This document shows, in pieces, positions 18,705 to 27,911 of a stretch of 35,607 nucleotides of DNA. The stretch is from a virus. Position 1 is the first letter of the stretch, and every line of letters begins with the position of its first letter. The stretch lies in IMG/VR virus record IMGVR_UViG_3300021197_000746, positions 1 to 35,607 of that record, one strand, 5' to 3'. The notes under the pieces were generated by a model that worked only from the letters and a program-made list of their open reading frames with translations, was not told the DNA's origin and did no database searches. Position numbers and translations under genes: made by a program.

Positions 18705-18733
18705 GTTATACCATCTACTCCGGAAAGGGTCAA
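18705..18733 (-). promoter_or_regulatory. Leftward early promoter A with half operator
   Basis: On the minus strand: TTGACC (18733-18728), a 17-base spacer CTTTCCGGAGTAGATGG, then TATAAC (18710-18705) with an extended TG. The spacer carries the half-site CCGGAGTA of the palindrome TACTCCGGAGTA; the other half is altered to CTTT. The leader then reads AACTTAGAACTTAAAACGGAG before the ATG at 18667. It drives the gene block from 18667 leftwards, probably through the helicase and primase. Confidence 0.82.
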
Positions 18734-19402: not shown

Positions 19403-19631
19403 ACCGAGCACTCCTAGTTAATTGGTTGAACCGGATAGTCGGTAGCTTCGCCCTGTTACCCATCGAGTCACAGACATAAGTCCACTTTCGACTGACCTTG
19501 GCCCAGACTGTTCGGTAACCTGAACCAACACGGGGGATCTCATCTTGAAGTTGAAGGGTCATCTTGACCGCATCTTTCAAAGCCTTTGGGGGCTTTTTGC
19601 TGAAAGGGTGTTTTGGCATTTTGAATTTCAT
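19395..19631 (-). CDS. Small basic protein, unknown function, first gene after promoter B
   Basis: A 78-residue basic protein beginning MKFKMPKHPFSKKPPKAL, then 'AVKMTLQLQDEIPRVGSGYRTVWAKVSRKW' and a basic tail 'IRFNQLTRSARYE'. The start is fixed by the conserved leader (ACGGAGAACGAAT then ATG) directly downstream of promoter B; an upstream in-frame ATG at 19712 would start before the promoter and can be dismissed. Positive charge suggests nucleic-acid or membrane contact, which is inference. I do not recognise a family. Confidence 0.65.
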   Translation of the reverse strand: MKFKMPKHPFSKKPPKALKDAVKMTLQLQDEIPRVGSGYRTVWAKVSRKWTYVCDSMGNRAKLPTIRFNQLTRSARYE

Positions 19632-19659
19632 ATTCGTTCTCCGTTCTAAGTTATTACTA

Positions 19660-19688
19660 TTTATACCATTACTCCGGAGTAGAGTCAA
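19660..19688 (-). promoter_or_regulatory. Leftward early promoter B with complete palindromic operator
   Basis: On the minus strand: TTGACT (19688-19683), 17-base spacer CTACTCCGGAGTAATGG, TATAAA (19665-19660), extended TG. The spacer contains the perfect 12-base palindrome TACTCCGGAGTA (19681-19670), a classic placement for a repressor site. The upstream gene's last codons (D-S-T-P-E-stop) are written through the operator. A leader AACTTAGAACGGAG follows before the ATG at 19631. Confidence 0.88.
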
Positions 19689-20701: not shown

Positions 20702-20730
20702 AGTATTACATTTTCCGGAGTAGGTGTCAA
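20702..20730 (-). promoter_or_regulatory. Leftward early promoter C with half operator
   Basis: On the minus strand: TTGACA (20730-20725), 17-base spacer CCTACTCCGGAAAATGT, AATACT (20707-20702) with extended TG. The spacer retains CTACTCCGGA, one half of the shared palindrome; the other half is lost. A TAATAC at 16-base spacing is an alternative -10. It drives the SprT-like gene and the block behind it, divergent from the rightward replication promoter. Confidence 0.8.
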
Positions 20731-24524: not shown

Positions 24525-25352
24525 ATGGTTGCTATACCACTTTCAGTTGAAAAACAAATTATCAAAAATATCTATCAGTCCTACCAGAAGAATCAGGCTT
24601 TGTATTTTCACAGGCTTGGAGCGTCTAATATTGGGACCGAGTGTGTTAGAAAAATATATTTTCAATGGAGAGTCTTTGCTAGGAAGCCCATAGACGGACG
24701 CATATTGCGTCTATTTGCAACTGGACACAACCAAGAGGACCGGATCATCAAAGACCTTCAACAGTCAGGATTAGAGGTCTGGGCAGTAAATGAATATGGA
24801 TCTCAGTTTGAGTTTCCTGATTCTACTGGTCATTTTGTCTGCCGTGCAGATGGTGTTGTTAAAAATGTTCCTCGTAGTTCAGAATCTCATTTGCTTGAAA
24901 TAAAGACACATAACAAAAAAAGTTTTAGTGCGTTACAGCGACACGGTGTGAAAGAATCTAAACCGGAACACTATGCACAAGTACAAATCAGTATGGCATT
25001 GGGTAATTTTAAACGTGGGTTATATGTTGCTGTCTGTAAAGACGATGAAAACTTTTATGTCGAACGTATTCAACCAAGTATTAAAGATCAAAAGAACCTT
25101 CAGAAACGTATTACATCGCTCGTAAACGCTCGTATGAGGCCAACAGGCATAAGTGATGATGGAAGTGCCTTTCAATGCAAATGGTGCGATATGCGTAGCG
25201 TATGCGTCAAAGAAGAAAAACCGTTATTTCATTGTAGAACTTGCCAAAATTCTGTACCGAGTCATAATGGGGAATGGCGTTGCACGTTACATAACGTAAC
25301 TTTAACTCCACAAAATCAACTTGTTGGTTGTGAGGATTACACAGGATTATGA
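24525..25352 (+). CDS. Cas4/RecB-like PD-(D/E)XK exonuclease with Fe-S cysteines
   Basis: A 275-residue nuclease. The active site is 'FVCRADGV' (D109) and 'LLEIKTHNKK' (E125, K127), a PD-(D/E)XK core. A 'YAQVQISMALG' QxxxY-like helix follows. Four cysteines, C40, then C218, C221 and C227, match the split Cys-(long gap)-Cys-x2-Cys-x5-Cys pattern of the Cas4/AddB iron-sulfur staple. A second pair of CxxC-like cysteines (C237, C240, C253, C269) forms an added zinc-type tail. It likely processes DNA ends for recombination. No CRISPR locus is present. The ribosome site is weak. It overlaps the resolvase by ATGA. Confidence 0.85.
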   Translation: MVAIPLSVEKQIIKNIYQSYQKNQALYFHRLGASNIGTECVRKIYFQWRVFARKPIDGRILRLFATGHNQEDRIIKDLQQSGLEVWAVNEYGSQFEFPDSTGHFVCRADGVVKNVPRSSESHLLEIKTHNKKSFSALQRHGVKESKPEHYAQVQISMALGNFKRGLYVAVCKDDENFYVERIQPSIKDQKNLQKRITSLVNARMRPTGISDDGSAFQCKWCDMRSVCVKEEKPLFHCRTCQNSVPSHNGEWRCTLHNVTLTPQNQLVGCEDYTGL

Positions 25353-25843
25353 CTATAACTGTCGGAATTGATCCGGGTTTAACCGGAGCCATTGGTATTT
25401 TGGAAAATGGGCAGTTTCAATCCGTACACGATATGCCAGTAATGAATAAAGGTGGTGGTAAAGTTAAATGGGAAGTTGATGTAACGGCTACGATAAATTT
25501 ATTGCGACAAAAAACTCGTAAGGAAGGTGAACCTGAAGATTTTGTTTCGTGCGTTATTGAGAGAGTTCACGCTCACCCGCAACAAGGGGTTAGTTCAGTA
25601 TTTAGCTTGGGTGACTCTTTCGGCAGTGCTCGTGCTTGCGTGGCAAGTGTCAGTAAGATCGAACTGCGGTATGTAACGCCTCAAGTATGGAAAAAATATT
25701 TTGGACTCACGGCAGATAAAGAACAGGCCAGAGCATTAGCCCTGACCATGTTTCCAGATGCTCCAATCAATTTGAAGAAACACTCAGACCGATCTGAGGC
25801 TTTGTTGATGTCTCGGTGGTTGTGGGAGACTGAGTATCAATAG
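25349..25843 (+). CDS. RuvC-like Holliday junction resolvase
   Basis: A 164-residue RNase H-fold nuclease with 'GIDPGLTGAIG' (D8), 'VIERV' (E71) and 'HSDRSEALLMSRWL' (H145, D147, E150), the standard acidic cluster. Phage RuvC-like enzymes resolve branched DNA before packaging. It is coupled to the nuclease by ATGA and is the last gene of the rightward block. Its last 25 codons overlap antiparallel to the Mom-like gene. A weak AGATTC/GAATCT hairpin with a T-rich tail (25842-25870) directly after its stop could be a poor terminator. Confidence 0.9.
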   Translation: MTITVGIDPGLTGAIGILENGQFQSVHDMPVMNKGGGKVKWEVDVTATINLLRQKTRKEGEPEDFVSCVIERVHAHPQQGVSSVFSLGDSFGSARACVASVSKIELRYVTPQVWKKYFGLTADKEQARALALTMFPDAPINLKKHSDRSEALLMSRWLWETEYQ

Positions 25844-26480
25844 ATTCTTTTGGATATGAATCTTTGATTTTATATCGCAGAGCCTGTTTCAATTCTTTCT
25901 TTTCACGTTTATTACCTAAAAAATAAATGTATCGATGTTTCTGGGATCGATCTACGACCTCATATTTTTCTGGGTTGGCTATGCGTTCTTCCAATGTACT
26001 CTGCGATACAATGGTCTTAGAGTGTAGATTAGAGCCACGGACAACCCACTCAGTTCTTTTAGCACTCATACCAGTGTAAACGAAGTTGAGAGCCTGATAG
26101 ATAACCCCAGTGTGGTCCTGAGCCGTGTCAGCGTAGGAAACAACCACCTTTGGTTTGGGCAATAGTTTTAAGGCACGGCTTACTAGGAAGGATGCTTCGT
26201 TTTTTAAATTGTCACGAAGTACAAGTCGATTAAGCTCAATAACATTTTCTTTGTGTTCAACGCCACAAACACCCTCGCATAATGAAGGTGATGGTGGAGT
26301 ACCAAACGAAACAATCCCCACCAGTGGCCCAATGCGGAACAGATCGTGAGGATTGTCACCTTTTTTAAATAACCCGAATGCCCAACTTATCGAGGGTACT
26401 CGCCTCGCATAGTGAATATCCAATATGAAAGGCAAGCAATCTTGATAGTTGATAGGCTCTACGTTGTATTCATTCTCCAT
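25767..26480 (-). CDS. mom-like: Mom-like DNA adenine modification acyltransferase
   Basis: A 237-residue protein with the Mom family signature: 'DIHYARRVPS' (H23, Y24), 'GIVSFGTPPSPSLCEGVCG', 'VIELNRLVLRD', 'FLVSRALKLLPKP', 'VVVSYADTAQDHTGVIYQALNFVYTG' (split over 112-137) and 'HRYIYFLGNKREKKELK'. Mom is a GNAT-fold, iron-containing enzyme that converts adenine in phage Mu DNA to a methylcarbamoylated form, blocking many restriction enzymes. Here it would protect phage DNA (inference). The ribosome site is weak: GGAG falls after the start codon, and the ATG lies 2 bases from the upstream stop, so translation may be coupled. The C-terminal 27 residues, polar and repetitive, are encoded antisense to the resolvase. 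Confidence 0.85.
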   Translation of the reverse strand: MENEYNVEPINYQDCLPFILDIHYARRVPSISWAFGLFKKGDNPHDLFRIGPLVGIVSFGTPPSPSLCEGVCGVEHKENVIELNRLVLRDNLKNEASFLVSRALKLLPKPKVVVSYADTAQDHTGVIYQALNFVYTGMSAKRTEWVVRGSNLHSKTIVSQSTLEERIANPEKYEVVDRSQKHRYIYFLGNKREKKELKQALRYKIKDSYPKESIDTQSPTTTETSTKPQIGLSVSSN

Positions 26481-26482
26481 TC

Positions 26483-27385
26483 TTAATTGCTCACTTTAGA
26501 AATGACAGCTTTTCTAGGTCTTTTGAAAAACCCAAACTTAGCATCTTTGTCAGACGGTGTTACAGTTGCTGTAAAACTAATATGATCACCTTTACCAACG
26601 AAAACAGCTACACCCTCATCATCATAAATGCTTGGTACAGAACCCCAAACTACAAAACCGTTTCGGTGATCTTTAACTGTCATTTTTAAAACTTCACCAA
26701 ATCGAGTTTCTTTCAAATCAACTTTGAGCACTTCACCCCAAATTCTAACTGTTCCCGTTGGTACATCTTGAGCCTTAGCTTTTTCTTCGGCCCATTGTGC
26801 TTTGATCTGTGCTTCTTTTTCTGCAAAAGTAAGACCACCGTAAATTGTACGCTGTCTAGCTAACTCATTTTCTATACGGAGAGCTTCTTTTTCATTTCTT
26901 TTGATTTGTGCTGTAGCCCGTCTTTTTGCACGAGTCTCAGGGGAAGTTTTGAAGGCACGTTTTTTTGCACCGCCACAAGACCAACATACTTTGTCTTCTG
27001 AACCCCATGCAACCCAACCCTTACCTTCGCACTTGTGACAATCTTCGTACCAAACTTTTTTGACTTTTTCACCAAAACCAGAGCCTTTGCATGGCTCACA
27101 AAAACGAACATATCCTATGGCGTTTTCATCTGCAAAAACGTGTTCTAAGTTACGGTGCTTTAAATGCATTCGACCATACCCACGCCTACGAGATGCTCGT
27201 TCTTCCTTAGACATTTTGTTGTAATTGCTGTATCGATCTCGTTTTTGCAACACGACTTCAATCCCATCATTCCAATAATTGGGATGGGTGCTTGATGTAA
27301 AACCAACACCCTTACAATTTATGCATTTTTCGATGTCGAGTCCGTCTTGGATGTTGTCTGAAAGATCGTGTTTTGTGCAAGCCAT
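26483..27385 (-). CDS. DnaJ-type zinc-finger protein with C-terminal OB-like domain
   Basis: A 300-residue protein without a J domain. Four zinc-cysteine pairs: C21xxC24 (KGVG), C96xxC99 (KGSG), C116xxC119 (EGKG) and C134xxC137 (GGAK), a DnaJ-like cysteine-rich unit with a 70-residue basic insertion. A charged helix spans 145-208, and then 'GTVRIWGEVLKVD' to 'KRPRKAVISKV' (about 211-298) is an OB-fold-like beta domain. It might be an SSB or RNA-binding protein. It is the first gene after promoter D, with the conserved ACGGAGAACTTAA leader, and lies 2 bases upstream of the Mom-like gene. In phage Mu, a small zinc-finger protein (Com) encoded just before mom activates its translation; whether this one does is unknown. 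Confidence 0.72.
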   Translation of the reverse strand: MACTKHDLSDNIQDGLDIEKCINCKGVGFTSSTHPNYWNDGIEVVLQKRDRYSNYNKMSKEERASRRRGYGRMHLKHRNLEHVFADENAIGYVRFCEPCKGSGFGEKVKKVWYEDCHKCEGKGWVAWGSEDKVCWSCGGAKKRAFKTSPETRAKRRATAQIKRNEKEALRIENELARQRTIYGGLTFAEKEAQIKAQWAEEKAKAQDVPTGTVRIWGEVLKVDLKETRFGEVLKMTVKDHRNGFVVWGSVPSIYDDEGVAVFVGKGDHISFTATVTPSDKDAKFGFFKRPRKAVISKVSN

Positions 27386-27413
27386 TTAAGTTCTCCGTTT
27401 TAAGTTATTCTTA

Positions 27414-27442
27414 TTTATAACCGTTTCCGGAGTAGATTGCAA
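27414..27442 (-). promoter_or_regulatory. Leftward promoter D with half operator
   Basis: On the minus strand: TTGCAA (27442-27437), 17-base spacer TCTACTCCGGAAACGGT, TATAAA (27419-27414), then AATAACTTAAAACGGAG. The spacer keeps CTACTCCGGA, one half of the palindrome TACTCCGGAGTA. The -35 is weaker than in the other three. It drives the zinc-finger gene and the Mom-like gene. The sequence is just past the end of the lysozyme gene, so it may also take read-through. Confidence 0.8.
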
Positions 27443-27446
27443 GTGT

Positions 27447-27911
27447 TTAACTTGACAAAAATAAATTTCTTTCTGCCATGCGTCTACGGTGTAAGCCACG
27501 AATAAATTTACCGCTGGCATAGGACCAACGGGGGAACTCATCCGGTGCAGTAGGATCACCCTTTATCACTTTCTTACGAAGTGTGCTTGCTCGGAGTGAA
27601 CCGGAGCCAAGATTATAAGCGAAACTTACAAGACTATCGAATTGGTTTTGCGTTAAATGGCTACAAGGCACGAGCCTGAGCACTGCTTGCTCGTATGACA
27701 CTAATTGTTTCCTAAGCAGGCTTTCTGCCTCATCTCTGGACATCTCAGGGGTATTCTGTGTTACCCTACTGCCATCGGCTAGTCGCGTGCTACCCCAACC
27801 TATGGTCCAGACCTTGGCAGAACATTGATAAGGTTTTGATCTAAATCCCTCAAACGTCTTTAATAGATCAATGCCACGGTCAGATGTTTTAGTTACTTTC
27901 TGGACATCCAT
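27447..27911 (-). CDS. GH24 lysozyme (endolysin)
   Basis: A 154-residue endolysin of T4/P1/phage-21 type. The E-8X-(D/C)-5X-T triad is E21 ('KTFEGF'), C30 ('PYQCSA') and T36 ('VWTIGWG'). Downstream markers are 'TQNQFDSLVSFAYNLGSGSLRASTL' and 'GLHRRRMAERNLFLSS', typical of the family. It hydrolyses the peptidoglycan glycan chain at lysis. No signal peptide or SAR helix is visible at the N-terminus, so it needs a holin. It overlaps the EF-hand holin candidate by 19 bases and is a lysis-module member. Confidence 0.93.
   Translation of the reverse strand: MDVQKVTKTSDRGIDLLKTFEGFRSKPYQCSAKVWTIGWGSTRLADGSRVTQNTPEMSRDEAESLLRKQLVSYEQAVLRLVPCSHLTQNQFDSLVSFAYNLGSGSLRASTLRKKVIKGDPTAPDEFPRWSYASGKFIRGLHRRRMAERNLFLSS

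Follow-up and report, generated by a model that had tools for sequence, protein, structure and literature searches.

The closest described system to the locus considered here is the com-mom gene pair of phage Mu, in which the zinc-finger protein Com (NP_050656; Pfam PF10122) is encoded directly before mom, the two genes sharing 80 nt. Com acts by opening a hairpin that covers the start of mom (PMC6483171), and Mom itself (NP_050657) is represented by the crystal chain PDB 8bv8, an inactive mutant in which S124 is the residue changed. Mom-like genes are also present in Listeria, Proteus, Acinetobacter (JeffCo) and Roseobacter (CRP-902) phages, whose products are Mom-family proteins 39-43% identical to the one described here; most of these genes lie tight against small, unrelated genes upstream, and they differ from the present locus in their neighbours, and none of the four records has a zinc-OB gene of the kind described below annotated beside mom. 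A literature search for zinc partners of Mom-like genes yielded one relevant paper, that on Mu Com.

The window, by which is meant the whole 35.6-kb virus record analysed here, carries matches to head, packaging and DNA-ejection proteins. Its terminase is nearest to those of Roseobacter phages CRP-901 and CRP-902, at 46% identity, and no near-identical DNA was found among named phages in a search with positions 15000-35607. A first-pass annotation had singled out a mom-like gene that follows a zinc-protein gene and had read the two as a possible com-mom-like unit. On the minus strand, the order is an endolysin gene, a promoter-like sequence, a leader, a 300-codon gene, two bases, and a 237-codon gene. 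The endolysin gene (27447-27911, minus strand; PF00959, 5e-39) forms one border of this region, and the other is a ruvC-like resolvase gene (25349-25843, plus strand; phrog_1770, 2.5e-25), which is convergent and shares a 77-bp antisense overlap (25767-25843) with the 3' end of the 237-codon gene. The promoter-like sequence TTGCAA-17-TATAAA (27414-27442, minus strand) is early-type and sigma-70-like, and is kept in relatives that carry other genes between the same borders; a single-copy palindrome, CAAGTTAAACACTTG (27440-27454), overlaps its -35 element, and an operator-like half-palindrome with the consensus CTACTCCGGAGTAG lies in its spacer (27422-27435). Operator-like palindromic sites of the latter type number four in the window, where 0.62 are expected, and all of them (18715-18728, 19669-19682, 20710-20723 and 27422-27435) lie in or near the spacers of promoter-like sequences. 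The ribosome-site leader of the first gene, AACGGAGAAC (27390-27399, minus strand), scores -6.6 kcal/mol.

The 237-codon gene (25767-26480, minus strand) encodes a genuine member of the Mom family, as the first-pass annotation had claimed. The profile search that it had proposed gives matches far above the cut-offs: Pfam Mom (PF25680) is matched at E=2e-35 with 122.7 bits (curated cut-off 27.1) and phrog_1384 at E=7e-56, while the Mu Mom crystal chain 8bv8 is recovered by sequence at 4.3e-10. The structure model (mean pLDDT 85) has the GNAT-related fold of Mom, and 8bv8 is its top PDB match (E 2.3e-11, TM 0.65-0.68), followed by GNAT acetyltransferases. In an alignment of the window Mom, Mu Mom and 66 homologues the core elements HY..R, E-L-N-R, S97, S-Y-A-D118, YQ, H153 and RY are kept; residues H23-Y24, R27, E82, R85, S115, D118, Y128-Q129, H153 and R183-Y184 are invariant across 34 Moms including that of Mu, and S97 is nearly so (67/68 sequences). 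S97 and D118 align with S124 and D149 of Mu Mom, to which the window protein is about 33% identical, with a differing segment between YTG and RYI. The last 24 residues (214-237) are read antisense to ruvC and predicted to be disordered, and relatives vary in this tail, their Moms being 216, 222 or 237 residues long. The most likely activity of the window Mom is the addition of a methylcarbamoyl-type group to adenines of the phage DNA, which would shield that DNA from host restriction.

A related contig, L037, carries a mosaic version of the gene (L037:144-776), in which an unrelated segment takes the place of residues ~97-180, most sharply ~136-180. At the DNA level, residues 1-90 and 181-230 are 87-100% identical to the window mom, residues 91-140 are 57-83% identical, and identity then falls to 20-53% up to residue 180; the right-hand border is sharp. 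The Moms of the Listeria, Proteus and Acinetobacter phages have a segment of the incoming type. This Mom is a clear recombinant; that Mom enzymes in general possess an exchangeable specificity module, possibly one for target recognition, is a tentative and somewhat doubtful extension of the sequence pattern. If the segment does read the target sequence, exchanging it would let phages redirect Mom, in a manner resembling the target-recognition domains of restriction-modification systems.

The gene that precedes mom in the window (26483-27385, minus strand) encodes a protein of 300 residues that has four CxxC motifs (C21/24, C96/99, C116/119 and C134/137), and its stop lies 2 bases before the mom ATG, both as first described. 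Its C-terminal 87 residues (211-297; 26492-26755, minus strand) are predicted to form an OB barrel, which agrees with the OB-like domain noted earlier; the corresponding block of the model has a pLDDT of 67-90 and beta-barrel strands, and is the only usable part of a poor whole-protein model (mean pLDDT 57); the weak PDB matches of this part are mostly OB-fold proteins such as SSB, RPA, PriB and tRNA synthetases. A sequence search of the family against the PDB returned implausible weak matches only. The CxxC motifs resemble the DnaJ zinc repeats (CXXCXGXG-like; PF00684, E 3e-4, below the curated cut-off), with a weak similarity to the zinc motifs of anti-TRAP (E 5.7e-4, NCBIfam). The protein matches phrog_18425, phrog_4265 and phrog_4750, and an Arthrobacter phage relative, Liebe gp23, which also matches part of the zinc region, carries an ssDNA-binding annotation. 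These phage proteins share the C-terminal OB domain, with its SDKDAKFGFFKRP-type end; unlike the window protein they have no mom nearby, and their N-termini mostly lack CxxC motifs. In many phages the OB domain is joined to quite different N-termini that lack the zinc motifs, away from mom. Metagenomic contigs L004-L025 also carry it on non-zinc N-termini, the L004-L023 family joining an unrelated zinc-free N-terminus to the same OB-fold end, SDKDAKFGFFKRP.

The position of this zinc-type CxxC protein directly before mom recalls Com, and it could be supposed that it is a Com-like translational activator of mom. It precedes mom immediately in seven contigs including the window, and in one more with an 85-residue gene in between; its OB fold and zinc motifs suggest nucleic-acid binding, and the weak anti-TRAP similarity points the same way. 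However, Mu Com is recognized by the Com profile PF10122 at 2.7e-9 in the same scan in which the zinc-OB protein gives no match at E<=1, and no Com family match is present across the whole window record; the protein was consequently rejected as a Com homologue. With four CxxC motifs and an OB domain it also has neither the size (62 aa for Mu Com) nor the architecture of Com, a protein of about 62 residues with one zinc finger and a disordered tail, and its gene, unlike com in Mu, does not overlap mom. No strong hairpin of the kind that Com targets in Mu (PMC6483171) is seen: the 80-nt fold at the window mom start reaches -5.4 kcal/mol, as opposed to -20.5 in Mu, and a 100-nt fold shows no excess over shuffled sequences (z=+0.5), in a soft test in which Mu itself scores -0.5. 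The Com target motif CC(N)2-3GAG does not occur from -150 to +60 of the window mom, and occurs twice near the Mu start. Finally, the mom of a related contig (L030) is 97% identical to that of the window and has no zinc gene. Taken with these observations, a Com-like activator is highly improbable.

Zinc proteins are not a general neighbour of mom either. A survey of 152 mom loci gave 11 matches to an ORF that has at least two CxxC motifs and lies near the mom start, of which five are the zinc-OB protein of the window's own genus and the rest are unrelated. In two unrelated contigs, CxxC proteins of 75 residues (L170:2217-2444) and 65 residues (L104:4801-4998) lie directly before mom; the latter gives no match to the Com profile, and both are possible independent Com-like pairs.

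The relatives of the locus are metagenomic viral contigs, and scans with the zinc-OB, Mom, RuvC and endolysin proteins all returned the same genus. The zinc-OB gene and mom are found together in eight contigs (the window, L001/L029, L002/L027, L024/L026, which is at a contig edge, L033, L034, L035 and L003/L028), the last of which has the 85-residue gene mentioned above between the two. In four contigs mom is present and the zinc gene absent. The gene before mom is then of 61 residues (L030) or 82 residues (L031), or a pair of 75 and 82 residues (L032); in the fourth, L036, mom (L036:5001-5651) is inverted into the ruvC operon and other cargo is absent, an arrangement seen in this single contig. 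In L037, mom stands behind a non-zinc ORF at the contig edge. The converse also occurs: L148 has the zinc gene without mom. Between the same borders, L135 and L136 hold only a 60-residue gene, L113 is empty, and L119 holds the 60-residue gene together with an N6/N4 DNA methyltransferase (PF01555, 7e-32). This methyltransferase (L119:2155-2757) occupies the place of mom, and relatives of it, 82-91% identical, are found in other viral contigs (L238-L240).

The promoter and leader persist across these cargo types, and the region is best read as a cargo slot that is anchored by its promoter, bordered by the endolysin gene and ruvC, and closed by a DNA-protection gene; flanking repeats, sought as a signature of transposition, gave nothing convincing. 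The earlier proposal of one promoter for both genes is supported, the two lying behind a single conserved promoter and leader with an operator-like palindrome, whereas the com-mom-like unit is not supported, there being no Com domain, no hairpin and no CC(N)2-3GAG motif, and mom and the zinc gene each being found alone. An activator kept together with mom is not what the contigs display, with four cases of mom lacking the zinc gene and one of the reverse. The zinc gene is nevertheless present in 8 of the 13 mom-bearing contigs, and the association is not significant (Fisher p=0.29); with such small counts, this co-occurrence leaves some room for a functional link between the two genes. Such a link could lie at the DNA level, the zinc-OB protein acting as a partner of Mom that exposes or marks target DNA, for example, and having no translational role. 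The eight shared contigs, the OB fold of single-strand-binding type and the ssDNA-binding annotation of the Arthrobacter phage relative are consistent with this; but each gene occurs without the other, the association is not significant, and the OB domain is also common at sites away from mom, on N-termini of other kinds, all of which makes a DNA-level partnership unlikely.

Comparison of the sequence upstream of mom in 12 sister contigs places the junction exactly at the mom ATG (26478-26480, minus strand), downstream of which relatives are conserved and upstream of which they are unrelated. Across differing contexts, identity is 20-52% over positions -60 to -1 and 83-98% over positions +1 to +60, and in every context the upstream stop lies no more than about 11 nt from the ATG. 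Since the upstream sequences are unrelated up to the ATG, any translational control would have to reside within the mom sequence or depend on coupling to the stop that precedes it. The ribosome site of mom had been described as poor, a judgement that the rest of the genome does not bear out: the Shine-Dalgarno-like AAAGTGAGC (26489-26497, minus strand; spacing 8) is weak at -4.1 kcal/mol, but not unusual against a genome median of -4.75 kcal/mol. The GGAG that follows the start codon is coding sequence, because the ATG is kept in 13/13 genus members and the GGAG is lost in one of them, L032 (ATGGAAAGC).

The first codons of mom also resemble a leader elsewhere in the genome, AGAACGGAGAACGAATATG (19629-19647, minus strand), at 15/18 bases (16/18 in L035). 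At three mismatches or fewer, the window contains three matches, the mom start itself included, where 0.02-0.04 are expected, and with three against 0.04 the resemblance is more than chance. This raises the alternative that mom lost a leader of its own, the first codons ATGGAGAATGAATAC being the former leader; its start codon would have degenerated and a new ATG would have formed upstream, as first suggested. The resemblance on which that suggestion was built is real; against it, all 13 genus members already have the ATG and none shows an intermediate leader, the GGAG is dispensable (L032), N-terminal length varies freely among Moms, and the match is short and purine-rich. A lost leader is thus a serious possibility, though on balance not the probable one, and it is compatible with the reading preferred here; it is plausible as history, and not as a present-day regulatory device.

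The reading that we favour, and consider probable, is that Mom is the protective last gene of the cargo slot and is translated by coupling to whichever gene precedes it. In this scheme, a genuine Mom would add the methylcarbamoyl-type group to phage adenines and so block host restriction; mom closes a small slot that has the endolysin gene on one side and the convergent ruvC on the other, and whose single promoter and ribosome-site leader are both conserved; and, as its own ribosome site is not strong, mom would be translated by ribosomes finishing the upstream gene, through coupling or re-initiation. The preceding gene in the window simply happens to encode a zinc-OB protein of nucleic-acid-binding type, other genes serving in sister phages. 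Overlapping and closely spaced genes are frequent in phages, which counts against the coupling part of this reading.

What remains of interest is that the slot is exchangeable and that one Mom is mosaic. In a marine phage genus, a Mom enzyme appears to be usable with no Com to regulate it, and the mom start codon stays as the gene in front of it varies freely. If the mosaic segment does determine the target, its swapping would take place within a slot in which a methyltransferase can replace Mom itself. The interchange of Mom and methyltransferase, together with the recombinant Mom, provides natural variants with which to probe recognition by the variable segment of Mom, and the manner in which mom is restrained when Com is absent.
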